NCBI GenBank assembly: GCA_942159475.1
Contig: OW804098.1
Span: forward strand, 79,849,178 to 79,913,177
Length of the DNA: 64,000 nucleotides
Direction of reading: 5' to 3'
DNA from: Sthenelais limicola
Lineage: Eukaryota; Annelida; Polychaeta; Phyllodocida; Sigalionidae
A model generated the notes under the pieces. That model was given only the letters and a program-made list of their open reading frames with translations. It did no database searches and was not told where the DNA came from. The translations under genes and the position numbers were made by a program. This document shows, one piece after another, positions 1 to 49,265 of the stretch. Within the stretch, counting starts at the first letter, position 1. The number at the start of each line of letters is the position of its first letter.

Positions 1-573
1 ATAAGGATGCGCAAAATACACAAAACCAAAGCCCACCTGAACAAAGCAATCCAGGAGATGCACTTTCCCCGCAAGCCATGGTGATTCCCGAAGACATAAC
101 CACTGCTGAATCAGGCAGTGAAAGCACTGCACAAAAATTAGCCACAACTGGTTCGGAAATTGCGACAGACTATGAGCCACCACCAGCAAAAAGACGCTGT
201 GCATCTTGCTGTAAAAGTACAATGTCGTTTTTGGTGTCAACAGTAGGTCTTACATGTCTTATGATTGGTTACACAGTCATGGGAGGCTTTATTTTTATGA
301 AGTTAGAGTCTCCCAATGAGAGGATTCTCAAAAGCAATGTTCAACAGAGCAGGAAATGGCATGTGGAAATGCTGTGGAATCTCACCTATGAACTAAATAT
401 TCTGTATCCAGAGAACTGGACAAAGATAGCGGATGAAATAATGGAGAATTATACAAGGGAGGTGTATGTTGCCACCAAAAATAAAGGCTGGGATGGAAAA
501 GAAGGGGAGTCTGAAGTGCAATGGACATTTGCTGGGGCGCTCCTGTATTCAATAACTGTTGTGACCACCATAG
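1..573 (+). CDS. K2P (two-pore-domain) potassium channel, N-terminal exon, 5' partial
   Basis: This exon encodes the N-terminus, first membrane helix, extracellular cap and first half of pore loop 1 of a K2P leak potassium channel of the plasma membrane. The frame is open from the window edge, so the ATG at 78 may be internal; residues below are numbered from it. Visible parts are a hydrophilic N-terminus (1-47), M1 (about 49-77), a long M1-P1 cap loop with three N-glycosylation sequons (N101, N113, N124), and the P1 helix ending VVTTIG. A consensus donor (G|GTAAGTG) follows base 573 and leaves one base of the first filter glycine codon. Joining to 40210 restores TTIGYGH exactly in frame. An intron at this glycine is a known conserved position in K2P genes. 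The subfamily is uncertain; TWIK/TRESK-like invertebrate channels are candidates. Confidence 0.9.
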
Positions 574-694
574 GTAAGTGCATGTTTCCCTCTTGTAGCC
601 TAATTGAATTGAATATGCAATGCATTTAATATTTCAGGTACAAAAGATGCAAATCGAACCCTATACCCCAATCTTGTCACCGACATGGCTAACT

Positions 695-905: not shown

Positions 906-1376
906 TTTGACTAAATTTCTATTTTCATTCTTGTCATTTCCATCACCATCACCATCGCTACCACAATCACCATCATCTTATAACTCGTTTGCCTGATACA
1001 GGATCGTCAAGGACAAAACTTAATAATTACAGTTTTTAATCAGATACATCATCTATTGTGCTAAATTGAGTAGAAGAATGTTCAGAGAAACCTAAACATG
1101 TATGGCAGGAAATAAGGAGTGGGATTACTTTCAAGTATGCGTAAATTTATGTTTTGTTTTAAATTGATATTCATTAAATGCTTGCCGCGTGAATGAAACG
1201 ATCCCATTTTATTTTTTTTAATTATTTTATTTTTCCAGGTATTACAAAAAGGTTTGTCCTTTGCCACCCCTGTTCTAACAAGTATGATTTACACCTCGCA
1301 CCTGGCTTGAAGTGTCATTACAAAGTTCTGGAAGGATTGGGATAAGAAAAATGATATTAATATGATGGTTTGGTGG

Positions 1377-1395
1377 AATGAGATGAGATGAGATG
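1377..1395 (-). repeat. Short pentamer microsatellite, likely LINE 3' tail
   Basis: About three to four units of ATGAG on the + strand lie about 100 bp beyond the RT stop. Short tandem tails of this kind are typical of CR1-like 3' ends. Confidence 0.5.
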
Positions 1396-1494
1396 GAGGA
1401 TTATACATGGTGATTATATGAACTAGTTCAGTTCATATTAGCTTTAAGATCTAACCTTGATATTAAAGTTGTTATTTGTAATTACTCTCACTGT

Positions 1495-3710
1495 TCATTG
1501 TTCTAGGTACAACATCTTCAGTTTTTTCTTAAAAATTATAGCATCTGTTTCTAGTCTTAAATTTGTATTCAAGTTATTCCATAGGCTAGCGCCTTGATAC
1601 AGGAATGCCTTTCTGTAAATTTCATATTTGGGCGCTTTCTGTTCAAGAATAACACCATCATGCCTTCTGGTATTGCCTGGTGTTTTCTGTTGAAATATCT
1701 TCTCTTGATTATTATGGTGGACATCAAAGTGAATCTGTTTCAAAAGATTGAAATCCATCTTCCTAGTGAAGAGTAATGTTTTGGTATTCTTATGTAACTG
1801 AATAGTGGGGTATAACCTAGGTAGTCTTAGGGCCAATTTTAAAGCTCTGTTTTGTATCGTCTGGATTTTGTCCAGTTGATTCTTGTTGAGAGTCATAAAA
1901 CAGAAGTTGATATAGTCCAAGTAACATAGAACCATAGATTTTGTAAGTTTCATTGCACAATTTTTTGTTAGACTATCCCTAATTAGTTGTATTGTCTTTA
2001 ATCTGGCTGCTATCTGTCCAATCATAGAGTTAAAGCTCTTGTCAAATTTCAAATCCTCTTGAATGGTTATACCTAAATACCTAAAGTGTGATACCCACTC
2101 TTTTTGTGCACCATTGTCCAATTTAATAGGTGTTTCTTTATTATGCCTTTGTAGTTGGGTTCGGTTCCCAATTACCATAGCTTTAGTCTTATTAGTGTTG
2201 ACACTTAACTTATTAAAATTACTCCATTTCATAATCTTTTCACAGTCATGTTGTATTGATTTTATCAATTCATCATAACTATTTTCAATGTTAACAAGAG
2301 CTATATCATCGGCATACAAGTTCATCACACCTTTTGTTTCTAAGTTTATGATATCATTGATATAGATGATGAACATTGATGGTCCCAAAATCGACCCCTG
2401 TGGTACCCCAGTCACTAAGTTGGATTTTTTTGAGATATGCTCTGCTATTCTTACCTGTTGGCTTCTGCCATTCAGATAACTTGTCATTATATCAGTCACA
2501 TTGCTGCCTATATTTTACAGTTTCATTTTATCTATTAAAGGTTGATGAGGGACACAATCAAAAGCTTTTCTGTAATCAAAGAATGTACATGATATAAATC
2601 TTTTGTTATTAAAATTTTGTAGGATGGGACTAAGAAGGGAAGTTACACAGGCTGTAGTAGATTTTTTCTTTCTATATCCATATTGTTTATTGGAGATAAA
2701 ACACTCTTCCTCCATATGGGTCATTAATGCTTTATTTATGACCTTTTCTAATATTTTACCACAAACGTGTGTTAGTGATATAGGTCGAATGTTTTCTACT
2801 AGAGTAGAATTGCCTTTTTTGGGAAGTGGTGTAATGATTGCACCTTTCCACGCATTAGGAAATATGTTTTGTCTGATTGAGAGTCCAATTACATGATGGA
2901 ATATATCTGGTATAGCCATCAGTGCATCCTTATATATACTCTTGAGTTAATGCTTAGACACCCTGATGATTTGTTTGGATCTATCTCTCTGATCAATGCT
3001 TTTAATTCTTCTAAGGTTGGTATCTGAAGATCTAGAGGCTGTTTTTCTGATATTTTATTCTCTAACGTATTCTGATTCCTCTCATTAGGTGTACTCTCAT
3101 TCATCTCAGAACCTATGGATGTGAAGTAATTATTTATAATGTCAGGTGTTTCCTCTCTGGTGGCTAGTTTTTGAGTCTTTGGATCAATTACTTGTTTAAT
3201 CCCTTTGTTTTTCTCACTATCAGGAATTACATCCTTTACAACTTTCCAAAACTTTTTTGGATCTCCCTTATTTTCTTCTAATTTACCTTTAATAAAGTCA
3301 TTCTTCGCTCTTTTGAATGCTCTATTTACTATGTTTCTCAATTGATTCGCTCTTTGTTTGTCCTCCTCACTATTTAATTTAGCATATCTGTCTAGATGAT
3401 AATCTCTTTCATGTTTGAGTTCTATCAGCTCTTGTGTCACCCAAGGAGTTGGTTTTATCTTTACATAGAAGCTTTTCACTGGGCATATGTCATTCAGAAT
3501 CACTAGAATATTGTTGTAAATCATTTCCCAGGCCTTATCAGGGCTTTGTTCTGTCCAGATATTATCCCAGTTTTTCTCCAAAAGTTTTTCTTTCAAAATT
3601 ATAGGTGAATATCTATAGGTTCTGCCTTTTTGTAACGTTTTCTTAAGCCTCACTTTTGATTTCTTATAGACAAAGTATATAGGTAGGTGGTCGCCTTTTA
3701 TCCACAGCAA
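1495..3710 (-). pseudogene. LINE ORF2 C-terminal part: end of endonuclease, linker, reverse transcriptase (broken)
   Basis: The piece from 3710 starts with the end of the endonuclease, including the conserved DHLPI motif. A Lys/Glu-rich linker follows, then the RT. Visible RT motifs are SSGCLSINSR (start of the fingers), ITPLPKKGN with IRPISL, FFDYRKAFDCVPH (catalytic Asp, block A), VPQGSILGPSMFIIYINDI (block B) and LYADDIALV (catalytic YADD, block C). The thumb region ends with the ASLWNNL motif usual in CR1/Jockey-type ORF2. A frameshift near 2919 separates the linker from the palm, and a TAA at 2515-2517 interrupts the palm in frame. The product is therefore non-functional. Confidence 0.9.
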
Positions 3711-4110
3711 TTCTAGTATTAGCTGAGGGTGGTCTGTAAATATTCATTTGAATGATATCATTCATTTTCTCATACTTTATCCTTATTACCTGTAGTTCTA
3801 AGTTACTGTCACTCTGATTATATTTTTCGCAGTTTTCATAATCTATATTTTTATTAATATAGCTTACTATCCCACCACCTCTTTTACCCACTCTTCGATC
3901 CCATCTTACTTGATTAAAACCTTCTACAGCTATCATTGAGTCCTCTAAATCCTGATTTAGCCAGGATTCTGTACATACTATAGTTTCGAAATCACTATTA
4001 GCCAAGTCTGCTTGAATTAGGTGTATTTTACTCACGAGCGATCTAATATTCATATGAATAAATTTCTTCCCTTTAATGTCTAGAAGTTTGTTCAATTTAA
4101 TCTCAGTCAT
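3664..4110 (-). pseudogene. LINE ORF2 N-terminal APE-type endonuclease (internally deleted)
   Basis: The ATG at 4110 overlaps the stop of the preceding reading frame (ATGACTGAG next to TGA). Motifs include HMNIRSLVSK near the N-terminus, TESWLN (catalytic Glu region), RRVGKRGGGIVSYI and IYRPPSANT. After that the frame should continue through a GDFN-type motif to SDHxP, but the sequence jumps within a few codons to DHLPI in another frame. About 100 residues appear to be lost. Non-functional copy. Confidence 0.85.
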
Positions 4111-4407
4111 TTTGTCATAATTTTCTTATCTCTATACATTTGCCTCGGTCTAATTGGATGAATGGCCTTTGCCACTTGAAAACATACACACTTAGTCAAA
4201 ATATAACGATAACGACAAGGAGACAGTGCTGTTGGTTTTCCTGTTTTATATATGCAATTGATGTAACGTTGTAATGGGTAGGCCTTTGCCTTTCCCAATA
4301 TGAGAGGTATCATAAAAATACTTCCAGCTTTCTTTCCTGTTCTTATTTGATGTAGACTCATAATACAGTTGGCTTTTGCCATTCTGTTTAGTCGTGCATC
4401 TTTCATT
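4107..4407 (-). other. Unassigned stretch between the SGNH region and the endonuclease ORF
   Basis: An open frame (4586-4107) covers this stretch and overlaps the end of the SGNH region in a different frame. It ends in a TGA that overlaps the endonuclease ATG. I recognise no domain. The motif AAAGGCAAAGGCC, or close variants, recurs here on the minus strand near 4160, 4281 and 4373, and again near 6870 close to the putative 5' end. It could be untranslated linker rather than protein. Confidence 0.4.
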
Positions 4408-5067
4408 TTACAGAATAATAATGTTTCTCTCATAGAATCTTGCAATGTTGTGTGCCCACTCTTGTAATAATCTCTCTCCTGGGTGGAGTTCGTCTGTAAA
4501 GTAGGTATAGAAGGCTTTGACTTTATTCCTAGTTTTCCTATGAACTCGACTAGTAATGGTTGGAAAGATGATACCCTTGTGTACATGCCACGATAGCAAT
4601 TGCATGTTAATCATGTTCACTATCTGGTCCACATTGGATTGCCATCTATATCTGTACTAATCTCTATTATACCTTGCTACATCCATACCGCAAATACCCG
4701 CAAAAGAAAATAGGATATCTGGGAATTGACCCTCGGCTTCCAACCATACATTTCTAATGGTGTTGAGTACGGAGTTTGCTGTATTAGCTACCCTAATGTC
4801 TCTGAGAATAACTTTCCTATCATCAAAACGCTTCTTGGTTATATCACAAATTCCTCCCATTATGAGGATCATTTTGGGAGAAACTCTCTCTTTCATAAGA
4901 GTGATTTTTACTTGGAGGTAGAGATCTATTATGCGGGCACCCGGGAATACATAGACCATAGCATTGGTCATGTGCAAATATCGATCTAAGTTTCGTCCCC
5001 TCGAATCAGAAAAAATCAGAAAGTCTATCTTATCTGTATGTCGATCAGTCATCTTCGTTTGTAGCAT
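4408..5067 (-). pseudogene. SGNH/GDSL hydrolase-like ORF of the LINE (one nonsense codon)
   Basis: The reading frame opens with MTDRHTDKIDFLIFSDSRGR. The ATG overlaps the stop of the NADAR ORF, which suggests stop-start coupling. FSDSRGRNL resembles the block I serine motif, MGGICDIT sits where SGNH enzymes have a GxND-type block III (here Cys replaces the Asn), and DELHPGE near the end matches block V (Asp-x-x-His). A TAG at about 4652 breaks the frame, which then continues in the same phase to 4408. Esterase domains are established in CR1-like LINEs, usually in ORF1. Here it forms its own ORF between NADAR and the endonuclease. Activity is doubtful given the stop and the block III change. 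Confidence 0.75.
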
Positions 5068-5950
5068 CCAAATCTAGTTGATCTTCTCTTTGTAATTCCC
5101 CTTTTTCCTCTCCGTTTGCTTCTAAATACTCTTCTTCAGGGACTTGAATCGGTCCTCCTCCAAACATATGATACGCACCATGACCTCTGCCTCTGCCCCA
5201 GGCACCTGCACCTGCAAATGGGGTGCCTCGCCGTCCTACACCTCTATTATTGGGTCTCAAGTTTCTGAGTTTGGGGGGGGCGACTGGGTCTGCAAACCTA
5301 GCTACTGTAATTGGATTAGGTTGGATTGAGTTCTCTCTGATTATCTCAGTTCTCACTTGAGATAGAATTAGACCTAGGTTGTTTTTCCCATATAGTTTGG
5401 CTTTGGGGGTATTGAGCTTGTATGATGAAATGGACACACCAGCTCCCCAGAAGTTGTCGTTTGTACACTCTAATAGGTTGTGACCTTTAGTCGATACCAG
5501 GAAGCTAGCCAATTCTTTGTTTTGAGCGAATTTACACTCAAGAATATCTTTCATTCTTTCCAATTTTGATTTTTCCCAGACCTCTGTTGTCCCAACTTTT
5601 TCCCCTTCACTTTTACATTTTCTAGGATCCTTCGTTTTGAGAATCAATGTGGCCATCGGATTGTTTCCCACTATCTTGGCTTTCGACCACTGGAAGGCTT
5701 GCTCTGCACTTTCAAAAACATTTTGATCAAAATTGATCTTACATGGGTAAAAGTTAGAGAGGGGCGATAATTCCCCTTGAAATCCAATTCCCTGTATGAT
5801 CCTTCTGGTTTTCGTTTCCCCAAGCGACACGCCTCCAGGAATCTGTTCCAGCTGTTTGTGACCATATGATTGCTTGTTTACAATGATATGGCCTTTGTCT
5901 ACCCTGGGGTCTAATTGTTTAGCTTTCGCATGAGAAACAATCGCCCTCAT
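5045..5950 (-). CDS. NADAR-domain part of LINE ORF1, with Arg/Gly-rich tail
   Basis: This is an intact 301-codon stretch. Residues 1-45 finish the ORF1 RNA-binding C-terminal domain. Residues about 55-203 form a NADAR (YbiA-like, DUF1768) domain: GELSPLSNFYPC (59-70), ESAEQAFQWSKA (80-91), the DPRKCKSEGEKVG block, W125, ECKFAQN (138-144), DNFWGAG (165-171) and GKNNLGLILSQVR (188-200). Residues 236-266 are Arg/Gly/Phe-rich, like an RGG RNA-binding tail, and the end is acidic. NADAR proteins are glycosidases acting on N-glycosidic bonds in NAD/ADP-ribose-related metabolism; some reverse guanine ADP-ribosylation of nucleic acid. Inference: the element may use it to remove or resist ADP-ribosylation of its RNA or cDNA. 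Frameshifts upstream mean this copy lacks an intact ORF1. Confidence 0.88.
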   Translation of the reverse strand: MRAIVSHAKAKQLDPRVDKGHIIVNKQSYGHKQLEQIPGGVSLGETKTRRIIQGIGFQGELSPLSNFYPCKINFDQNVFESAEQAFQWSKAKIVGNNPMATLILKTKDPRKCKSEGEKVGTTEVWEKSKLERMKDILECKFAQNKELASFLVSTKGHNLLECTNDNFWGAGVSISSYKLNTPKAKLYGKNNLGLILSQVRTEIIRENSIQPNPITVARFADPVAPPKLRNLRPNNRGVGRRGTPFAGAGAWGRGRGHGAYHMFGGGPIQVPEEEYLEANGEEKGELQREDQLDLDATNEDD

Positions 5951-6523
5951 ATCCGATTGAGATTGTGCTAATTTAGGTGGCAGATCAGGGTTGAGGAAGC
6001 ATTTGTTGTTATTGTTTTAAGCTAGACTTTCTTCTACCTATTCTCGAACATACTGAAACCGATGCAAATTTTATCAGAATATTCCGATTTCTTTTATCAT
6101 TTTGGCCTTTTAATTTTCCTATCCTCGTGACATACTCGATTTTGTTTGCTGTAAATGACTCATCTATCTCTGATAGGAGTTCGCAACTAGGTTCATAGTA
6201 AGCTGGCTTCCTCGCTCATTTTCCCCAGCTCTTTCTTTGAAACCTGTTAGTATCATATTTGCCCCACGTTGGTTCGAATCAAGCCCAATACAGTAGTCTT
6301 CTAGATAAGAAGTGTATCTTTCTAGCTCTTGTTGTTTTTTCTCCAACTCTGTAATTCTTCTACTTAAGTTTTCCTTCTCTAGTATTTGCAGTCTGGCACC
6401 AATATTATCAATATCATTCTTCAGATCAGCTAATTTAGTTAGTTTCTCAGTTGTATCTGCGCCTATCTTAGTCATTTCAGTCGCATACATCTGCAATGCT
6501 AACTCGAAAGTATTCTTATCCAT
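5951..6523 (-). pseudogene. LINE ORF1 N-terminal region: coiled coil and RRM-like domain (frameshifted)
   Basis: The likely start is the ATG at 6523 (MDKNTFELALQMYATEM). A heptad-rich coiled coil follows (IGARLQILEKENLSRRITEL and onward), then the RRM-type start NMILTGFKERAGENER. The frame breaks near 6170 and resumes in another phase with EYVTRIGKLKGQNDKRNRNI, the second half of an L1-type ORF1 RRM. It breaks again near 6015 and resumes as NNNKCFLNPDLPPKLAQSQ in the frame of the NADAR ORF. The order coiled coil, RRM, C-terminal domain is that of L1-type ORF1 RNA-binding proteins, which trimerise and coat the element RNA. Confidence 0.75.
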
Positions 6524-6900
6524 ATTTGTGATATTATAAACCAGCAATATATCTCCAACTAAACAGTCATACCAACAGCACTCTCCACACACACAAAACA
6601 ATTCTCCAATATTTTCAAACTTGAAATTTACATCATAGAGTGAACCCTTTGTTATGATCCTAAGTGTTCTAGTCAGCCATTCGTTGCTCCCTAGACTTCT
6701 TACATAAAAGAAACAAGTGAAACCTAAGCTATACGTATAGATCACAATCAAAAGTATTATCCTTTCAGCATAGAATATATATACAACCCATATTTGCAGA
6801 TATTCTCCTAGATTGTCATCGATCAAAGAGTTTCTGATATGATCAGCGCCTATATAGCATGTATGATAGGCCTTTGCCTTTTCTCCGCTGTGCGCATTCG

Positions 6901-7700
6901 TTTTAGCATTGGGTTACCGCCAACACATACGATCGATGTACATACAGTCAAACATTTCACAATATACAACAAATAATGGTCAAAGATACATATCTGATCC
7001 GATGAAAAGGTGATGATAACTATTGTGGGTGATTTGGTGGTGAAAATAATCCCAAAATTTCCGTGTGAACCACTATATTGGTTGTGAAATGACAGAGCGG
7101 TATGCTAGTGCAACTGTCGCTGCCGCCCTCTTGACCCTATTTACGATTGTGGCTCCGTTGTACTTGAAATTGAAGGCCAGTGATGCTATGGAGCTAATTT
7201 ATTGCACATGTGATTTATTACAAATGTGATGAATTGTAATGTTCCAATTCTGTAATTAAGAGGAATACTAATTTTTAAACGTGTTGATACATTCTGAATC
7301 ATTCTGAGTATACTTACCTACATCATAAGTACCACGAACACTTTTCCATTTAATGTTTACTGAAGCCTAAGGTAAATGTTATCTGTAACTACGAGACAAG
7401 AAAAAAAAGACCGGTGTGATTTACTGTTATGAAGGATACTTGGAAAAATGAAACATCACTATAGCAACATAAAAGCCCCTCTTTCATCCGCAATCATATC
7501 GACGCCAATAACCTCTATAACCTTGACAATGTTCACTTAACAATAATATGTTGTTATACATATAAACACTCATTTTGTTACGATTTGGCTGCTTATTTGT
7601 AAAAAGCTGCCTGTAGAAATCTAGAAGTGAATGCTTTCAACCAAACTCTGAAGACAGAAAGATTCTCGGAACAATTTAATAAATAGACAGAACTAACCGC
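6901..7700. other. Intron sequence without recognisable gene
   Basis: A short + strand frame from 7091 (MTERYASATVAAALLTLFTI) contains a hydrophobic segment but has no splice support and stops after about 46 codons. Nothing else is recognised. Confidence 0.4.
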
Positions 7701-29181: not shown

Positions 29182-32181
29182 CTTGGGGATGTGTATCATT
29201 TATGCAAGGGAATTGTATCTATTTGTGGCCAAATCACAAATCGATGCATCGTATGCTAGAATAGCCTGTCTCCGGGGTGGGGTAGGCAAGACCGGTGTAT
29301 TTCCATTCTTGATTTTTCATTTTCAGTGTCGTCTGTCCCTTTAGGGAGGGCGGGAATTCAATAAGAATGTGCATATATATACGTCCCACGCTGGCCACCT
29401 AGCTTGGTATTGAATTGTGTGCTACCTTCTTGCCAACTACACACCTTTAATTAGATACACAATATATGCATGAAAGTATCATCTTACTCTAGTAAAGCAC
29501 TTTAAGCGCTACTGTAAACTTTAAATTGAATTTACTGGGGCTTACACTTATTGCAAGTACTTCATTAGGGAACTTTTCTTTATTTTACAGTTAAAGCTGC
29601 ATTCACAGCTAAGAAATATCATATCAGTCAGTCAGTTAGCTAACATGGATTTGCATTCAGTTAAGCTCCGTTTGATGGAACGCACGGAGCGTGGTTACTT
29701 AGGTGTATATTTACTTGCCTCTAAACTGTTTCATATATCCAGAGAATTCATTTTGAAGTTAGTTTCAAGTATTACTTCAAAGTCCTCAAAGACTAGACAT
29801 CCAATCTATCCCAGGTTCAGGGTTCATATGCAAATGAAGCCTGTCCTGTAGTCGTGTGCGTGACATAGCGATGGTGCGAGATATATATCAGATTCGCCAT
29901 TTCATACAACTGGATAGAAAGATATCTGGTATGAAAGATAAAAAGTCTTGCAGACTACCAAGACAACCATTCTACAGTTGCAATGTAGGGTGCAGAAGGA
30001 AGGAGTAATAATGCAATTTCTTAGCTTATTGGGATACCTATCTAGGCGGTGCTTCCTGAAGAAAGAAATAATTGAGAGTCACATTGAAAGAAGTGGAATT
30101 TCCGTGGGCCACTGACACGAGTAATTTATTTGGGGGATGATATGGTTTTGTACCGAAGAGAACAGGGTCAATGTTCGGAGTTGTTGGATATGAAGAGGAT
30201 GGCTTGGATGCTGTCCCTGTATTGAGACAGTCATAGAAAAAAATAATTGTGCAAGAATAGACTTAGCTATAGTAATGCAGCTATAGGTGATTTTTCGTCA
30301 GTCTTAATTTTTAACTTCAAATTAAAATCCTTGCCTCATGAATACATCTCATCAGAGAATATCCTGTTGGGATTTCCCCTTCTGCTGTTTATGTTTGGAA
30401 TATGGCAACTAAAGGATTCCAGACCCTGTCCATTAATCACCAACATGACACAGAGAGAAGAAGGGGGGGGGGAAGCTGATAGACTGTGAAATTATATTGT
30501 ATTAAAGTATACAATATAGTTCAATGGATTACTAATGATGAAAATGAGGATGAAATAAATTGATTTTGGGCAGAGACTGGTGATCTAATTACAGGTCTGT
30601 GTTTTGAGGGATATGATGAATAACATTTGATTATGGTAAATTAACAAGTGGTTGGAGGGGATGGTGCTCAAATTACCGCTATGCTACGATAGGATGGTCG
30701 TCACAGGTCACTTTTTATTCATAAATAAAATAATTTGTTTCATTACTTTCCATCTGGCTATGATGTCGTGTGCCGCCAGTGAGATAGAAACGCTGGAATG
30801 CAAAAACACAGTTTCCGTTGAATTCTTAGTTTAATTTTAATGTATATACATATATATAATATATGTCCTGTGCATGATAAGCCAATGAACATATAAGTCA
30901 ATGGCTATCTCATCGGAGGGTCAGTATTATCTCTTTACCACACAAATGTGGTAAAGTCATGAATACTCATTACAAGTCCGTGTCCTAAGGAAACAAATAT
31001 TATATATAGTATAGCTCTTCTCTAAATTTATGTGAATGGAACATGTAAAAGCTAAGAAGCGATATTGTACTCTAGAAGAGAAGATTGTTAAAAAAAAGCT
31101 TGAGGGGGCTGAAAACCTCCCACATGCAGATCCCCTTCAATGGCATTGAACGAATGCAAATAACGTTTTCCAATATAATCTAATCTAAGAAGGGGCCACA
31201 CAAACGAACAGTTCAATAGCTATGTATACAGCACTGTGGCGACACGAATGCCCGTAACGCGTTTTATGACAAATTGGAGGCTTCCATTCATAGATGTCTC
31301 GTCTTGTTTAATACTTTTTCATTTATATGGACCGGCCATTTATATGTTTTTTAGGCAAACAACAACTTAGACTATGTGTAAGTCGAAAATGTGTAAAAGC
31401 TGTTTTTATTTTCATGGCTGATCCATGTAAAGTAAGTTGCTGATGCATGTAAATTAAGCAGAAATACGTTTTGTAAATGACTGTAAAGCGTTATTCTGTG
31501 ATAGCTGTATGTGTACAACCCAGGCAGGTATCTACTTAGCAAGGTAAAGATTTGATGTTTATGGTATGAGAACTGATGTCTCTAAAGTGGTATTTTTTTC
31601 TTAATAACTGTATAACTGACTGTAATTTCTTATTCGGTTTTGGGGGACAGATGGTCTGGGACAAAATCATAAATATGGGAACATTAATTTAGCTATAACA
31701 GAAATTATGAAATCACATGTTCTCAATGTCAGATCGGATTACCAGGTTGGAGTCCAGTATTTATATGTACCTCCTGCTAGTACAAACAACATAATAGGAC
31801 AGCATCCTTTAATTTTCTTACAACAGCCCCCATGTAATGTTACATGGAATCGGACACATTTTATTTCGGTGCCTAATTCACACGCAGCAGGATATATACA
31901 GGTTACACCCAATCGAAGTATAGGGAAGTCGTGAGTGGGCGGTGGCGGCACCATCGATGACACAGCGTACCATACAGGGGGACGTCCCATCAGGGTTATA
32001 GCATTGCGGGAATGTAGCTATATCCATACGTTCGAGAGGGTCAAAGAGGACACGTGAAAGTTCACACCACAGCCCCTCGAGGTCACGCACTACAGAGGTC
32101 AGAGAGCCACTCAGAGCCGGCGCCGCGTCTGCCACCGGTTCAAGAGTCGGGCAATGGGTCACAGACTCACAGAGGAGGGCG

Positions 32182-33015
32182 ATGTCAGCGCCCAGAGTTA
32201 TCCGGAAGCAGGTACAAGCTGACAACTATATTGAACGCGAGATTGACAGGCAGCGCTTCGCACACAGACTACATGGTAGGGTTGACATAGTCACTGACAT
32301 ACTTAACTCTAAGATATTAGCAAAACCATATATGTATGTGTATAAGGAAGGGGTCCAGATGATTAAACAGAAGCTAGATGCAAGGGCGGGCCTGACATAT
32401 AATGAATACCTGGATGGCTTCCTCGCATTGCTAGATGATCCGGATGGCCTGTCGGATCAGGATGACTACCCCCACCTCATGCATCATCTGAGGCAAGTTA
32501 CCAAGGACAGTCTCAAACGTCCATGGCCCGCTGTCCGCAGGTGGACACAATACATCTGGGATATGGTCGAGGCGGCCAAGATCACCTGGTCGGATCGTTC
32601 GGCCATCCAGGACGAGAGAGTGAGAATCTGCCTCACGGGGGGCGGAATAAACTACACAGCTGCATCCACGTCAGACAACAATGTTAAACAAGCCAACTCG
32701 TCCAAGAAAGATAACACAGCTAAGGGTATTGAGGCGATATGCAGAAGGTATAATTCAAGAGACGGGTGCTCCCATAGCAGTGATCACAAGGAGTCCAACA
32801 TACTCATGCTCCATGCTTGCTCATACTGCGATTCCATCGGCAGACGCACTCACCATAACATCAAAGATTGCCAGAAGCGCATTAAGCACCAGCAGCAGCA
32901 AGCTGAAGGATCATACGTCCCCAGAAGCAACACATCTTCTTCCCTTAACGGGAACAGAAAGAATGGTATCAATACCTCTGAGTCAAAGGCTTCAGTAACT
33001 TCAAAAAACGAGTAA
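32182..33015 (+). CDS. Gag-like protein of the Ngaro-like element
   Basis: 277 residues. The N-terminal two thirds is helical and charged (YNEYLDGFLALLDDPDGLSD and following, then RPWPAVRRWTQYIWDMVEAA), consistent with a capsid-like region. A Cys/His cluster lies at 32739-32872: CRRYNSRDGC, then SDHKES, then HACSYCDSIGRRTHHNIKDC. This is the kind of zinc-binding segment found before the RT ORF of DIRS/Ngaro elements. The C-terminus is Ser/Asn/Lys-rich. The ORF stops 8 bp before the RT ORF start. Role inferred: packaging the element RNA. Confidence 0.75.
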   Translation: MSAPRVIRKQVQADNYIEREIDRQRFAHRLHGRVDIVTDILNSKILAKPYMYVYKEGVQMIKQKLDARAGLTYNEYLDGFLALLDDPDGLSDQDDYPHLMHHLRQVTKDSLKRPWPAVRRWTQYIWDMVEAAKITWSDRSAIQDERVRICLTGGGINYTAASTSDNNVKQANSSKKDNTAKGIEAICRRYNSRDGCSHSSDHKESNILMLHACSYCDSIGRRTHHNIKDCQKRIKHQQQQAEGSYVPRSNTSSSLNGNRKNGINTSESKASVTSKNE

Positions 33016-33023
33016 CTGGCGCA

Positions 33024-35168
33024 TTGTGCACTCCCGATGCACCACGCCCATCTCTGTATTGTAAACATGACCCAGTTCCTCATCCAACGGCCTGCCCAGG
33101 CACCAGCCAGCTTGGTCTCGCGCAACCTCTCGTGGGGAGCGAGACTCAGCGTCACAACCAAGATGGAGGCCCCAGGATCGAAAATAGGACACTGGACACA
33201 AGCGAAAAGAGATTTCGGCTGAACCCTATGGCTAGCGAATTGGTCCCTACCAACAAACAATATGATAACAAGGTGAGTCATAGCCCCTCTCATCACACTG
33301 TTGAACAAGACTACTTCGGCTCAGTTATCGATGTCTGCGCGGGTAAGATTGACCCGTCCCTCGTCAATACAGATCCAGCATCACTAGCGGACTATCGATC
33401 GAAGCACTGGCCCGATATAGACAATGCAGCAAAGTGGTGCGGTTACGGACATATATATACTCAGGTGAGAGCAACGGGAGTGCCTAATGTTATAGGCGCC
33501 AGAATCCTACTCCCCAGCAAGCTAAACATAAAGGGATGGGAGGACCTACTGTCAAGTTCAGCACAGGATCGTGAGGTACTGGACTTTATTAAATTTGGGT
33601 TCCCCATTGGCTACCTCGGCCCAGTATCTGATAACTCAGACATTAAAAACCACTCGAGCGCCACTAAATATCAGGACAAGATAGAGCAGTTTATAAACAA
33701 GGAACTTCACTTAAACAGGCTAATAGGCCCCTTTGGGTCCCCTCCATTCACCCCATGGTGTCACACCTCACCAATGATGTCTAGAGCAAAAAAGGACTGT
33801 GACGCTAGGAGGGTAATAATCAACCTCACCTTCCCTGAGGAGTCATCTGTGAATAAATTCATAATTAAAAATTCTGTGTGGGGTGTGCAAAGGGAGCACT
33901 CCCTCCCAACGGTGGAGCATCTCGTTTCACACCTAAAAAGTGTGGGGCCCTCTGCTTTTCTCCCTGTCATTGATATCACCAGAGCGTACAAGAACTTTAA
34001 CAACGACCCTCTAGACTGGCCCCTTCTATGTCTAGAGTGGGACAAGTCATGGTACTGTGATATTACAATGCCATTTGGAAGCAGAGGGTCAAGTGCTCAT
34101 ATGCAAAGAATCGCCAACTCAATTGTAGCAATGCTGAGACGTCAGGGACATCATGCATTTATGTACCTCGACGATCTGGCCCTCATCAGCAATGGTAGGC
34201 AGGACGCCGAGGTAGCCTATAGCTGTGCCAGGCGTACCCTCAAAGCGCTGGGCTTAGTTGAGGCCGTAGACAAGCTTCAGCCACCCAGTCAAAAGGTTAA
34301 ATGGCTGGGGATCGAAATTGATGCTGCCAACATGACTCTCTCTATCCCCGAGGAAAAAGTACAACAGGTAATAAGAATGGCCCAGAAGTACCTCAAGAAA
34401 AGATCTATTACCAAGAGAGAGCTACAGTCATTAATCGGCTCACTAATCCATGTGAGCAAGTGCATCCCACCTGTGAGGGTCTTTGTGTCAAGGCTCCTTG
34501 AATCTCTCAGAGGGTTCAAGGGGGCACATAATAACATCAACGCAGACATGAGGGAGGACCTCAGGTGGTTTCAAGACTTCTGTGCCGAATGGAATGGCGT
34601 CGCAATGATTCCAGACGTGCACGCCACAAAAGTCTACCTTGTTGACGCCTGCCTATCTGGCATTGGAGCTACAGATGGGCAGCATGCATATGCACATCGC
34701 ATATGTGACCATGGAATGGAGTCAGATAATATCTCGGAGGTTGAAGCCCTCAATATCGCGGTGGCCCTTCACACCTTTGTATCTGACCAGGATAGTGGAT
34801 CACACATCCACATACTATGTGACAATCTCGCCAGCGTCCATATTTTCACATCAGGAAAAGGAAGGAACAGGGCAATGACAGCTGCAGCCCGCATGGCCTG
34901 GATGGTCCAAGCCAAATATAACATCAAGCTGAGCTACGGCCATATCCCTGGGTCCATGAACAACGTCGCCAATGCTCTTAGCCGGGCCCACCTTGGGGAA
35001 AATAATCATATCGAATGCCAAAAATGGATTAACCATTATTCACTTGAAATGCTATCACCATGTACCTTTGCCTTAGACATGTCTCTGCTCACTTTCAGGA
35101 ACTCCTCTCGAGCCACTTGTACACCAGGCCGAGGCCACACAGGAGAGAGCGTGGTCAGATGGCACTAA
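33024..35168 (+). CDS. Reverse transcriptase-RNase H of the Ngaro-like element
   Basis: 714 codons without interruption. RT motifs: VIDITRAYKNF near residue 315 (first catalytic Asp), CDITMPFGSRGSSAHMQRIA (block B, usual for DIRS-type RTs) and FMYLDDLALIS near 380 (YxDD). VKWLGIEID follows. RNase H: VYLVDACLSGIGA near 538, SEVEALNIAV near 570, HILCDNLASV near 598, and NNVANALSRA near 646. The first roughly 70 residues look low in conservation, and a later ATG may be used. The last 92 bases overlap the recombinase frame, which runs in the +1 phase. Confidence 0.92.
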   Translation: MCTPDAPRPSLYCKHDPVPHPTACPGTSQLGLAQPLVGSETQRHNQDGGPRIENRTLDTSEKRFRLNPMASELVPTNKQYDNKVSHSPSHHTVEQDYFGSVIDVCAGKIDPSLVNTDPASLADYRSKHWPDIDNAAKWCGYGHIYTQVRATGVPNVIGARILLPSKLNIKGWEDLLSSSAQDREVLDFIKFGFPIGYLGPVSDNSDIKNHSSATKYQDKIEQFINKELHLNRLIGPFGSPPFTPWCHTSPMMSRAKKDCDARRVIINLTFPEESSVNKFIIKNSVWGVQREHSLPTVEHLVSHLKSVGPSAFLPVIDITRAYKNFNNDPLDWPLLCLEWDKSWYCDITMPFGSRGSSAHMQRIANSIVAMLRRQGHHAFMYLDDLALISNGRQDAEVAYSCARRTLKALGLVEAVDKLQPPSQKVKWLGIEIDAANMTLSIPEEKVQQVIRMAQKYLKKRSITKRELQSLIGSLIHVSKCIPPVRVFVSRLLESLRGFKGAHNNINADMREDLRWFQDFCAEWNGVAMIPDVHATKVYLVDACLSGIGATDGQHAYAHRICDHGMESDNISEVEALNIAVALHTFVSDQDSGSHIHILCDNLASVHIFTSGKGRNRAMTAAARMAWMVQAKYNIKLSYGHIPGSMNNVANALSRAHLGENNHIECQKWINHYSLEMLSPCTFALDMSLLTFRNSSRATCTPGRGHTGESVVRWH

Positions 35169-36057
35169 GGCTAACAGACAGTCCGCAGTCAAAGCATACC
35201 TACAGTTCGCCAAGCACATGATGTTCGACCCTCACAATGCTCAAGTCGGCCATATATGTGCGTATGTTCAACACCTTGCCAACAACATGCCATCTCCAGG
35301 ATCAGTCCGCAACCATGTATCTCACATCCGAACATACTTGAAGATGTGCGATTCAGACACGTCTAATTTCTCCCATCATCGAGTCAACTGGACGCTGGAG
35401 GGCATAACAAGGGATAAGAGGTATGTCCCTAGAACCAAGATGCCGATGCCTGTCATGCTGATAAAGGAGATGGTCATTAAGCTCTCCCCTGGATACGAGT
35501 CTCTGGTGGTGGGGACGGCCGTCCTCATGATGTACTATGGGGCCTTGCGTCAATCAGAGGTAGTGCCCCCATCGATAAACAAGTTTGACCCCCTCCGACA
35601 CCTGACCAGGGGTGACGTCACAGTGTTCCAAGACAACATAACACTCAACATAAAGGCTGCAAAGAACATGCAGTCCACATACGACCGCAGACTCATCACC
35701 CGGAGAGCAGCTGATGACAAAAGGATCTGTGTTGTCAGTCGTGTCAGGTCAGTACTAAAGCAACAGCCTACCACCTCAACGATCCAACCTATGTTTACGT
35801 TCAAGAACACACAGAGACCGGTCCCTGCCTCCTATGTGGCCAGGTACTGGAAAAGACACCTGGTACACAATGAAGTGGAGGCCAGTAAGCTGTCTCCACA
35901 CAGCCTCAGGAAGGCGGCAGCCACCACAGCTTTCAAATCAGGGGCATCGGAAACAGAAGTGAAGCGACTTGGAGGGTGGTCCTCGGATGCCTTCCAAGCC
36001 TACATGCACACGGATGAATCCAAAACAAATGACAGGCTTGTGAATGCTATGTCATAA
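35077..36057 (+). CDS. Tyrosine recombinase of the Ngaro-like element
   Basis: The frame is open from 35077, inside the end of the RT ORF, but its first ATG is at 35218. Sequence before that ATG (NRQSAVKAYLQFAKHM) already looks like the N-terminal core-binding helix, so translation may involve a +1 frameshift or a non-AUG start. Catalytic features are GALRQSEVV (first Arg), SPHSLRKAAATT (HxxR) and LGGWSSDAFQAYMH (Trp/His position and nucleophile Tyr). The arrangement R...HxxR...Y defines the family. It would integrate the circular cDNA. No damage is visible. Confidence 0.9.
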   Translation, partial: TCLCSLSGTPLEPLVHQAEATQERAWSDGTKANRQSAVKAYLQFAKHMMFDPHNAQVGHICAYVQHLANNMPSPGSVRNHVSHIRTYLKMCDSDTSNFSHHRVNWTLEGITRDKRYVPRTKMPMPVMLIKEMVIKLSPGYESLVVGTAVLMMYYGALRQSEVVPPSINKFDPLRHLTRGDVTVFQDNITLNIKAAKNMQSTYDRRLITRRAADDKRICVVSRVRSVLKQQPTTSTIQPMFTFKNTQRPVPASYVARYWKRHLVHNEVEASKLSPHSLRKAAATTAFKSGASETEVKRLGGWSSDAFQAYMHTDESKTNDRLVNAMS

Positions 36058-39900: not shown

Positions 39901-40209
39901 ATTTTCTAATATCTCACTCTTTTCGTGTGACAGTCCAACAATTTCATTGGTCAACTTCAACCTAAAAAATAGTAGCCTACCTGTATGTACATGCATGGCT
40001 ATATTCCTTTTTTTTGAAGATTTTATATATACTAGGTAATAACAGGTTTTTCAACTCAGGTGGAAAAGCTGATGACTGATTGACCCGTTTCTCCAGCTAA
40101 TGAAACATACTGCATTTTGTGTCCTGTGTTGGGAGATAATCATTAACCAATAATAAACTCATATATTGCTGTACAACACAATTGATTCTTTACTTTCCAT
40201 ATTTTGCAG
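36975..40209. other. Intron sequence between the Ngaro-like element and the K2P 3' exon
   Basis: No exon recognised. A GTAAGTTGAG donor-like motif on the minus strand near 37830 has no good acceptor. TGCGCATGGGACATGCGCA at 38914-38932 is a near-palindrome of two NRF1-like half sites. The 3' splice region before 40210 is pyrimidine-rich (TTCTTTACTTTCCATATTTT, then GCAG). Confidence 0.45.
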
Positions 40210-40982
40210 GCTATGGTCACATTGCTCCGCGCACTACCTGGGGAAGATTTGTGACTATTATCTACGCCCTGTTCGGCATCCCACTAACCCTCTTAACCAT
40301 CACCAACCTGGGCGGTTTCATGGCTACAACCTTTAGGTTTATCTACAAAAACATATGTTGCGGCTTGTGCTGCATTTGCTGCGTCTGCTGCAGGTCCAGA
40401 CCCCAAGCCGACATCAACTCAGCCACTGTGAAATACAGAGACCCGCAAAATGGAGAGGCCGGTGCATCAAGGTCACTCACAGGGTCCCCTGATGCCGGTG
40501 GCGCCAGCAGTGGCGGTGTTGAGGACCAACAACCGCAACCTCCGAAAAAGTATCCCCTACGTGTGGTGTGGCGTAAGGGTTTACGGAGAATGTTCCGAAC
40601 TGAAGACAACAAACGAGTGTCAGTACCAATTACTGTCAGTGTTCTAGTAATGTCCTCTTATATTATAGCCGGAGCTGTTTTATTTACTTTATGGGAACCG
40701 GACTGGGATTATGTAATCGGTGCATATTTCTGTTTTATAACGCTTACGACTATAGGATTTGGGGATTTCGTTCCTGGCACCTCTGAAGACTCTTGGGCAA
40801 ACCAGGAGAAGTTGGTTCTCTGTGCTTTCTACCTATTATTTGGCTTAGCACTCATTGCTATGTGCTTTGATCTGATGCAAGAAGAAGCTAGGAATATGGT
40901 TCGTGCATTTGGAGTGAAGTTGGGAATAATTTCAAAGGAGAAGAAACCTAGCCCTTCAGCAGAAGAGAGACCCGGTTACTAA
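40210..40982 (+). CDS. K2P potassium channel, C-terminal exon
   Basis: The exon completes the filter (GYG at 166-168, numbering from the ATG at 78) and encodes M2 (about 177-204, with GIPLTLLTITNLGG). A striking cluster of eight cysteines in 12 residues follows (215-226), a likely palmitoylation site. Then come a variable Pro/Gly-rich M2-M3 loop, M3 (about 302-327), pore 2 with TTIGFGD (GFG at 348-350), M4 (about 366-386, YLLFGLALIAMCF) and a short basic C-terminus ending at TAA 40980-40982. Two pore loops in one chain, GYG then GFG, is the K2P signature; two chains make a channel. The two exons give 422 residues, a normal length. Confidence 0.95.
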
Positions 40983-46791: not shown

Positions 46792-49265
46792 ATATGGGTG
46801 GGGCTCCCGAAAATGTCCATTTTGCCAAAATCACCCATTTTAATTCCATAATTTATTCGGATTTCATGCCACATTACCAATTGTACAGTATTTTGTACCT
46901 TCCCAAGTCTATAATAAGGACATATTGAGAAATATATATAAAAATTCCTTTTTATGCAAAAAAATAATATGTTTATGTTAGAAAATGTCCCCAAATGCAT
47001 GTCCCTGGCATAAATTCTTTTTTGTTTCAATGAAAAGTTTTATAAAACTTATTAATTTGTTATTTGTCTTTAATTCTTCATGAAGCATATGTAAGAATCT
47101 CCTTCTGAGTTTATTTTTTAATTTAATTTTGTTTTATTTATTTTATTATTTTCTGTCTTTTCATTCACATCCCTCCAAATAACTTATGAAGATTATTCAT
47201 AAATTGATAAAATCCACAATAAAGGTTCTACCTAGGAAATGTTTTGCTTTCGGTTTTGTGTTCTTGATATAGTCCCATATCACATAAAACTTTGAATTTT
47301 TATTTTTTTCCAATTTTGACCATACTCATGGTTCCATAAAGTTGAGACATAGACATTCTGAGTTTGACTGCCTTTTCTTCTCACAGTGATAAAGTGCATT
47401 TTTATTCAAATATTCATGAAAATACATATGTGATTATGCACATTTATTTGATATTTACCCATCTTATATGTTGACTTTGAATATATTAGCAGAGAACCCA
47501 CCTTCTGAGTATGTGTTGTGTTCGGGGACAGGGGTGTTGTGTTCGGGGACAGGGGTGTTGTGTTCGGGGACACAGAGATTATGACCAAAAAGTAATGAAA
47601 TTAAAAAGTAATGGGAAAATCGACTAAACCCTTCATTTATGCATTAAATTTTGTATATAACCCATTGGTTATATTTCCATTGACTGCTTATTTTCCCCTA
47701 GACAAAGGGGTTGTTGTGTTCGGGGAGGGGATGGGGTGTTGTGTTCGAGGACGGGGGTGTTGTGTTCGGGGACGGGGGTGTTGTGTTTGAGTTTGAGAAA
47801 CAATTAGGAAAAAAGATAAAATTGAATAATAAATCCTATACAATTCATTTGTGTATGCAATTGTATGCATGAACTATTGGTTATATGGCCATTAAATGCT
47901 GAGTTTCACATAGAAAAGGGAGGTGTTGTGTTCGGGGACAGGGTGGGGTGTTGTGTTCGGGGACAGGATGGGGTGTTGTGTTCGGGGACAGGGGTGTTAT
48001 GTTTGGGTACAAATATGCTATGATGAAAAAATGATAAAATTGAAAACTAAAGTATTCGATTTGATTGTGTATATAATTCTGAACATAAATATTTGGTTAT
48101 ATTCCAAATGACTACTTTCTTTCCCTTAAATTAAGGGGGTGTTGTGTTCGGGGACAGGGTGGGGTGTTGTGTTCGGGGACAGGGGTGTTGTGTTCGGGTA
48201 CAAATATGCTATGACCAAAAAATGATTAAATTGAATGATAATGAAAAAGTAAACTATTCTAATCATTTCTCTCTGTAATTCTGCACATACATCTTTGGTT
48301 ATATTCCCATTTACTGCTTGGCTTTTACCTTATAAATGGGGTGTTGTGTTCGGGGACAGGGGCCTTTAAACAGCATGAGTAAATTGGTAATTAAAGTGAA
48401 AATATGAATAATAGAATCAAAATTAATCCGAAATAAGACACCCCTATGGGTATCAGATGAATACAGACATAGATAATGGCAATATAATAGGTATTTACAG
48501 GTATTTTTGCAATATTTGTGTGTATGTTGTGTTCGGGGACAACCCAGAAAATACAATATTTATTATAAAATAGTAAAAAAATATAAATATAGGCCTGAGT
48601 TGTATCAAGTTAAATCGATATATGTAGTATGAAAGTAGAAATAATAGTTAAATTCCATAAAAATTGACATGTGTTGTGTTCGGGGACTGGGATAGCATAG
48701 TGTTCTTCCTTGGTCCAATAAATTCATGTTTTTTAATGAGATAATAATAAAAATAGGTAGAAGCAGGTAGAAAACTCCTCCAAATTCTGAGTTATCCTTT
48801 AAAAAAGCAGAAAACATAAGATATTCAATTTTACATCAGTTAGCAGGGAAAACTTTGGAATAGAATTGGCAGTGAAGCAATTGTGGTTGAAGGAACAGGA
48901 AATAGAAATGAATAAATACATGAAATATCATATAAACTATTTATTTCTTAACTAAATACAACAGAACTCATGTAAATCTAAATAGACGAGGAGTAATGAC
49001 AACAATATAATGCTATTTTCCTTTTTTATACAATTTTGTTCATTTCCTCCCCGAACACAACAGGCACTGTGGCCAAAAATGGACACTTTTTGGATACACT
49101 TCATGGGAAATCAGAAAAAGCTCAAAAAAATTTATAATTTTAGTATGTTTAGGCTTGTACCATTGGCTATGATCAGGAGAAGGCTCAGATAAATTAAATT
49201 AAAAGAAAAGAAAATTTTGACTTTATTTTTTTGAAAGTGGACATTTTCGGGAGCCCCGCCCATAT
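46792..49265. mobile_element. 2.5 kb TIR-bounded element with nested higher-order repeats
   Basis: The arms 46792-46823 and 49234-49265 match at 30 of 32 positions; the ends begin ATATGGGYGGGGCTCCCGAA. No transposase or other ORF is recognisable; apparent frames of repeating Ser-Pro-Asn-Thr-Thr or Arg-Thr-Gln-His are products of the repeat. The interior carries the array at 47513-48690, and at 49045-49063 a single inverted copy of its core (CCCCGAACACAACA). No clear target-site duplication; TA is possible. Confidence 0.75.
47513..48690 (+). repeat. Nested array: 21-25 bp G-rich units in bursts within a roughly 200-217 bp higher-order repeat
   Basis: The unit GTGTTGTGTTCGGGGACAGG occurs at 47513, 47534 and 47555; degenerate or perfect near 47710, 47735, 47757 and 47778; at 47923, 47948, 47973 and 47994; at 48139, 48164 and 48185; then singly near 48341, 48523 and 48671. 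Bursts are separated by AT-rich spacers that are themselves homologous: TTGGTTATATT-type blocks at 47668, 47876, 48093 and 48293 are 208, 217 and 200 bp apart. GGGG tracts spaced by ACA and TGTTGTGTTC give quadruplex potential on the + strand. Confidence 0.85.

Follow-up and report, generated by a model that had tools for sequence, protein, structure and literature searches.

A NADAR domain maintained in the ORF1 protein of a LINE lineage of the annelid Sthenelais limicola

Introduction

NADAR proteins reverse the ADP-ribosylation of guanosine on RNA and DNA (PMC11833690, PMC11543638), and the role of the animal members has been stated to be unclear (PMC11125620). Here we describe a long interspersed nuclear element (LINE) with a NADAR domain in its first open reading frame (ORF1), found in a stretch of 64,000 bases of the Sthenelais limicola genome (assembly GCA_942159475.1, contig OW804098.1, positions 79,849,178 to 79,913,177 of the forward strand), called the window below. 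The closest described elements are the Tx1 LINEs of the oyster Crassostrea gigas, where ORF1 of several Repbase families appears to hold a NADAR of the YbiA family with an unclear role, perhaps in RNA processing (PMC12477816). A single sentence of that paper thus already puts the bare NADAR-ORF1 fusion in print, and the sequence-only reading of the window, which knew of no described LINE with such a fusion, has to be corrected. Among the literature matches listed, this was the only paper to link NADAR with LINEs, and its main text makes no mention of SGNH or esterase. Like the oyster elements, the window family has a YbiA-family NADAR in ORF1 and is one of several such families of an animal LINE.

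Other systems resemble the window LINE in part. Gypsy elements of the brown alga Ectocarpus are likewise retroelements that captured a NADAR, but they are long terminal repeat elements with the domain in the N-terminal part of Pol, and their NADARs match almost exclusively bacterial proteins outside Ectocarpus (PMC12477816). In animal plus-strand RNA viruses, NADAR is also attached to machinery for RNA replication in invertebrates and is proposed to act against host ADP-ribosylation; there it sits in the virus polyprotein, whereas in the window it belongs to the ORF1 protein (ORF1p) of a LINE (PMC9503650). The NADAR of the DarT1-NADAR toxin-antitoxin system has its fold and its catalytic Glu and Lys in common with the window domain, but that subfamily has Asp in the last strand, where the window has Glu, as does YbiA (PMC11543638). 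Type II ORF1 of the CR1/L2-lineage LINEs has the coiled coil, RNA recognition motif (RRM) and C-terminal domain (CTD) that are probable in the window LINE; the ORF1 domains which that paper names for the Jockey superfamily, in the parts available, are coiled coil, CCHC, CTD, esterase, PHD, RRM and zinc finger/leucine zipper, with NADAR unnamed (Metcalfe and Casane 2014, PMC4120745). The esterase is there an ORF1 type of vertebrate groups only, whereas the SGNH-like protein of the window LINE is encoded by a separate ORF after ORF1.

To our knowledge, the following are new: the architecture in which an SGNH-like protein has its own ORF, a reverse transcriptase (RT) unlike that of L1 at motif B, the number of families, the survey of the active site, the fold evidence for the joint between CTD and NADAR, and a selection test with an internal control.

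Results

NADAR domain and active site

ORF1 of the window LINE contains a complete NADAR domain, which matches PF08719 with E 4.7e-29 and 102.2 bits against a curated cut-off of 35.1. The sequence-only reading had proposed just such an ORF1; the proposal is confirmed by this profile score, by the many copies of the element and by selection on the domain. ORF1 of the window copy begins with a Met at about 6523 and ends at 5048, and the order of its parts in this multi-copy lineage is most likely coiled coil, RRM, CTD, NADAR and a disordered tail. All features below lie on the reverse strand.

1207..7133 (-): defective LINE copy with NADAR, from its 5' end at about 7133 to its 3' end at about 1207, which an A-rich tail adjoins
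6017..6523 (-): probable coiled coil and RRM part of ORF1, counted from the initial Met of the sister ORF1 that is open; matches the sister ORF1 by tblastn and by profile; reading frame interrupted in the window
5792..6016 (-): ORF1 CTD, probable, of L1 ORF1p type
5333..5791 (-): NADAR domain, complete, PF08719
5702..5704 (-): catalytic Glu, residue 105 of the 323-amino-acid frame
5681..5683 (-): catalytic Lys, residue 112
5468..5470 (-): catalytic Glu, residue 183, in the last strand
5048..5332 (-): ORF1 tail, RG-rich and mostly disordered (predicted-structure pLDDT below 50 at residues 255-264 and 266-323)
4411..5073 (-): ORF2, SGNH/GDSL-like, in overlap with the end of ORF1 and with an interrupted frame in the window; two frames match a custom-built profile at E 3e-50 and 7e-32
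1498..4125 (-): ORF3, coding for an APE-type endonuclease and the RT, split over four frames; RVT_1 E 1.1e-13 and 5e-15; tblastn/blastn matches to L039-L043 and L010-L012

The window NADAR has the YbiA-like fold. By alignment, Glu105 corresponds to E43 of the Phytophthora NADAR (8bau) and E88 of the E. coli C7 NADAR, Lys112 to K50 and K95 of the same two proteins, and Glu183 to E125 of the Phytophthora protein and structurally to D171 of E. coli C7; the catalytic roles of these residues are taken from PMC11543638. Glu105 is present in all 57 NADAR copies compared and Glu183 in 56 of them, while the Lys equivalent to K75 and two tryptophans are each found in 57/57. The YbiA subfamily is defined by Glu, neither D nor H, in the last strand (PMC11125620), and the alignment of Glu183 with E125 of 8bau places the window domain there. 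Among phage families (PHROGs) the domain matches phrog_1017, annotated as of unknown function, with E 2.6e-35. The search for a viral source was uninformative: an IMG/VR relative is encoded in just one of 38 stretches, at 28% identity.

The coiled coil-RRM profile matches the LINE-1 ORF1P structures 2ykp and 2yko weakly (E 0.03-0.047), and matches to coiled coils and ORF1P overall have E 0.02-0.05.

The LINE copy and its other ORFs

The element has the hallmarks of a LINE: many copies, a fixed 3' end with an A-rich tail, 5' truncation, and an APE endonuclease that shares one ORF with the RT. The matches of nine relatives (L010-L013, L015, L017, L018, L022, L030) end at 1206-1208 of the window, and an A-rich tail of variable composition follows in those of the nine whose ends were inspected; the 5' boundary is given by the match of L039, which extends to 7133. 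The longest word common to the searched flanks of the window copy has 7 bases and is not placeable as a clear target-site duplication. The window copy has three coding regions, ORF1, the SGNH-like second ORF and the endonuclease-RT region, all of them with frame breaks, and about 250 bases are gone at 3694-3696 relative to the sister copies. In the sister L041, ORF1 is open for 625 codons (about 495 counting from the first Met), and the endonuclease-RT frame is open throughout the sequence read.

In the second ORF the DSRG, GGICD and DGxH blocks are preserved in six families, DSRG and DGxH being invariant in the 6 aligned; we take DSRG to be SGNH block I with the catalytic Ser, and DGxH to be block V (DxxH). 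The ORF scores below the Pfam cut-off (Lipase_GDSL_2 at 17 bits versus 32.9 in L005, and no match in L008 and L039) and therefore we limit its name to SGNH-like; its matches to GDSL lipases of the PDB have E 0.086-0.11. In L045, a single frame of 1001 amino acids has RVT_1 above cut-off, whereas Exo_endo_phos_2 narrowly misses its cut-off (27.3 bits against 27.4), with no RNase H match in a Pfam scan of this frame; Exo_endo_phos is above cut-off in L003.

Motif B distinguishes Jockey-type RTs from those of the L1/Tx1 type, Tx1 being a clade of the L1 superfamily. The motif reads GVPQGS..GP in the NADAR LINE L045, unlike GTRQGCPLSP in human L1, and GVKQGDPMSP in an R2. The oyster elements are named Tx1 and could be compared with ours by description only.

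Copies and families

A NADAR search of the 1.13 Gb genome gave 5561 candidates, 150 of which were scored; all 150 lay above cut-off, 148 of them without an internal stop. For two of the 150 the flanks were examined, and both belong to a different repeat with a free NADAR; the frame length of a third is the same. At one such locus (L100:949-1434, - strand) a free-standing NADAR of 162 amino acids (PF08719 E 3.2e-31) lies in a non-LINE repeat, which shares 699 bases at 98% with L101. The neighbouring ORF of 223 amino acids, without a Pfam match, may resemble a Polinton-type DNA polymerase.

Twenty-five LINE loci were analysed with flanks (the window, L001-L008, L039-L042, L047-L050 and L103-L110). 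Twenty of them, and 52 of the 57 NADAR copies, come from the top NADAR-HMM (hidden Markov model) matches, a choice that favours intact, conserved copies; of the 57, mostly the domain alone was read, and one (L098) is not a LINE. The locus profiles were built from 7 of the 25 loci (6 for SGNH), which match by construction. The coiled coil-RRM-CTD profile is found upstream of NADAR in 24 loci, in several only piecewise, and falls below threshold in L103. The expectation that NADAR always stands between the CTD and SGNH holds in part: a downstream SGNH-like ORF is present in 16 of the 25 loci, but in eight (L002-L004 and L104-L108, the endonuclease match of L104 being weak) the endonuclease comes straight after ORF1 and nothing SGNH-like matches in between, and L001 shows neither within its flank. 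Because eight loci show none, the SGNH-like ORF need not share the function of NADAR.

Six other families, selected for having NADAR, all carry it, and their ORF1 is 26-35% identical to that of the window family. Identity amounts to 37-42% in NADAR and 18-34% in the coiled coil-RRM-CTD part, and NADAR is thus better conserved than the part before it. An ORF1-profile search beyond this genome, with 7992 candidates scored, found eight proteins, all with NADAR. A further protein of 240 amino acids (P0046) carries zinc knuckles (zf-CCHC E 0.00026) ahead of its NADAR, and is perhaps a second retroelement-like coat-protein architecture with this domain.

Among the five sister copies read upstream, NADAR is at the same place in four, and the fifth (L043) is 5' truncated. 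In a wider set of 14 copies picked by their RT, NADAR is present in four, including L040, which is truncated within ORF1, and absent from the available stretch of ten. Of these ten, L043 is truncated within the endonuclease; L055 retains the SGNH-like ORF and the tail end of ORF1, with no ORF1 before that; L053 combines a piece of the 5' untranslated region (5'UTR) with an interior that is shortened and of which about 400 bases were unseen; and the other seven have no ORF1, SGNH or endonuclease piece. None of the 14 joins the coiled coil-RRM-CTD part to the tail without NADAR, in a sample from which the share of NADAR-free families is not inferable. Upstream of the truncated copy in L043 lies a second, distantly related LINE with an open endonuclease-RT frame of 986 codons (L043:618-3575, + strand).

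Selection on ORF1 and the copying machinery

The window and L041 form a pair chosen via RT, so that the comparison of modules is free of a bias from choosing by NADAR. Their ratio of nonsynonymous to synonymous rates (dN/dS) in ORF1 is 0.27 for the coiled coil and RRM, 0.13 for the CTD, 0.05 for NADAR (2 nonsynonymous and 11 synonymous changes) and 0.81 for the tail. The other modules give 0.06 (SGNH-like), 0.14 (first part of the endonuclease), 0.43 (endonuclease-linker) and 0.19 (first part of RT), and the control, an upstream 5'UTR frame assumed to be untranslated, gives 1.03. Constraint on the SGNH-like ORF is similar to that on NADAR: Fisher's test against the control gives p 0.002 and 0.005, respectively, and p above 0.05 for the coiled coil and RRM, the endonuclease and the first part of RT. 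The second part of RT has dN/dS of 0.10-0.15 between the window and L010-L013; with L014, L015 and L016, which are partial copies, the values are 0.36, 0.08 and 0.43. This 5'UTR frame is the sole neutral control; another frame, 'mid' (dN/dS 2.26), was discarded, since some 200 of its 501 bases also belong to the SGNH-like ORF, which reads them in a different frame.

Across the 57 NADAR copies, 21 of the 1596 pairs have dS of 0.05-1.0, and these non-independent pairs have a median dN/dS of 0.063 and a maximum of 0.39. The copies, 52 of them top NADAR matches, contain no stops. The strictness with which NADAR is maintained is close to that of the copying machinery and suggests that the domain protects the element against a chemical defence of the host.

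Phylogeny

In a quick RT tree, the NADAR LINEs L041 and L044-L048 cluster with the relative P0158 (Shimodaira-Hasegawa-like approximate likelihood ratio, SH-aLRT, 96), separate from 53 other near RTs and from the second LINE of L043; L049 was too short and was excluded. This grouping fits a single NADAR-bearing lineage in which the SGNH-like ORF may have been gained or lost. In the NADAR trees, all LINE copies and the ORF1 proteins from outside this genome fall on one side (SH-aLRT 97 in the quick tree, 92/95 in the careful one), apart from more than 100 other NADARs, yet this side includes 11 or 12 unlabelled rows. A LINE-exclusive NADAR clade is unsupported: the careful tree, whose bootstrap is unsettled, mixes 65 labelled and 11 unlabelled rows, and the label needs four changes, at least two of them forced. 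By eye, the unlabelled P0009, P0013 and P0035 resemble ORF1 fragments, and P0010 and P0011 resemble free NADARs.

Discussion

Type II ORF1p binds LINE RNA, as established for L1 (PMC4120745), and the ORF1p described here would likewise coat the RNA of its element. A NADAR in every ORF1p would spread a guanine-ADP-ribose hydrolase over the particle, where it would strip ADP-ribose from guanines in the RNA, in the cDNA and nicked target DNA, or in both, and the template would stay readable for reverse transcription despite putative guanine-directed ADP-ribosyltransferases of the host. Animals do have transferases of this kind, and a part in immunity has been proposed for shellfish CARP-1 (PMC8053099). 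The catalysis, its guanine-ADP-ribose substrate, the opponent in the host and the PARP-like defence suggested by the sequence-only reading are all postulated from the activity of other NADARs, and we give the proposed cleaning of the element's nucleic acid as much credence as doubt. The broader proposal is more tentative and in our view rather doubtful: that animals restrict LINEs through guanine ADP-ribosylation of their RNA or cDNA, and that the coat-protein NADAR, selected as strictly as RT across many families, erases the mark.

Several points weigh against such a function. ADP-ribosylation of LINE nucleic acid was not found in the available parts of the literature consulted, and the change counts behind the low dN/dS of NADAR are small. 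The window has E at the position of R79 of 8bau, which contacts the pyrophosphate. The catalytic Lys position holds K in 34 of the 57 copies, R in 20 and I, Q or E in three (K or R in 54). The R forms mostly make up entire families rather than scattered decayed copies; as the K95R form of the E. coli C7 NADAR is reported to be active in vitro yet not to rescue from its toxin, the R-form LINE families may have a weaker activity or a changed substrate.

Rather than cleaning its own nucleic acid, the element could use NADAR to destroy soluble signals that the host derives from NAD when it senses foreign RNA, namely cyclic or linear derivatives of ADP-ribose. For this the conserved pocket would suffice as well, and soluble ADP-ribose derivatives have been suggested as targets of viral NADARs, but the same paper prefers macromolecular targets for eukaryotic RNA viruses, whose NADARs lie inside polyproteins (PMC9503650). 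Since NADAR is fused here to an RNA-binding ORF1p, a nucleic-acid substrate seems favoured, and we regard soluble targets as unlikely. The replacement of the catalytic Lys in 23 copies would also suit a NADAR that is now a nucleotide- or nucleic-acid-binding accessory fold of ORF1p, selected for something other than catalysis, as would the K kept in 57/57 at the equivalent of an E. coli C7 Lys that is needed in vivo and not for catalysis. Both catalytic glutamates are retained, however, which binding alone would not obviously require, and we consider this account quite unlikely. LINE insertion nicks DNA and PARPs work at DNA breaks, so NADAR might instead act on PARP-made ADP-ribosylated proteins or DNA ends at the insertion site; we think this improbable. 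Chance resemblance or a one-off capture of a host fragment, which the sequence-only reading had allowed for, is hardly credible given the profile score, the four of five sister copies and the six further families, and nothing speaks in its favour.

If the ORF1p NADAR does remove ADP-ribose from guanines, a LINE coat protein doubles as an enzyme of nucleic-acid repair, and one would naturally expect the host to defend itself by ADP-ribosylating the nucleic acid of retrotransposons. What animal NADARs do is stated to be unclear (PMC11125620), and immunity is so far a proposed role of shellfish CARP-1 (PMC8053099); the open frames of the sister copies allow simple enzyme assays.

Other features of the window

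At 32002-36057 (+) open frames encode an RT (RVT_1 E 3.1e-14) and, after it, a tyrosine recombinase (PF00589 E 1.5e-9), a content from which we infer a DIRS/Ngaro-like element. A potassium channel exon (Ion_trans_2, E 2.8e-26) lies at 40140-40982 (+). By eye alone, another channel part may occupy 1-580 (+), although the translated frame has stops and does not show a channel; if such a part ends near 580, the LINE would lie in an intron. Nested tandem repeats, with units of 21-25 bases inside a unit of 216 bases, occupy 47513-48202.
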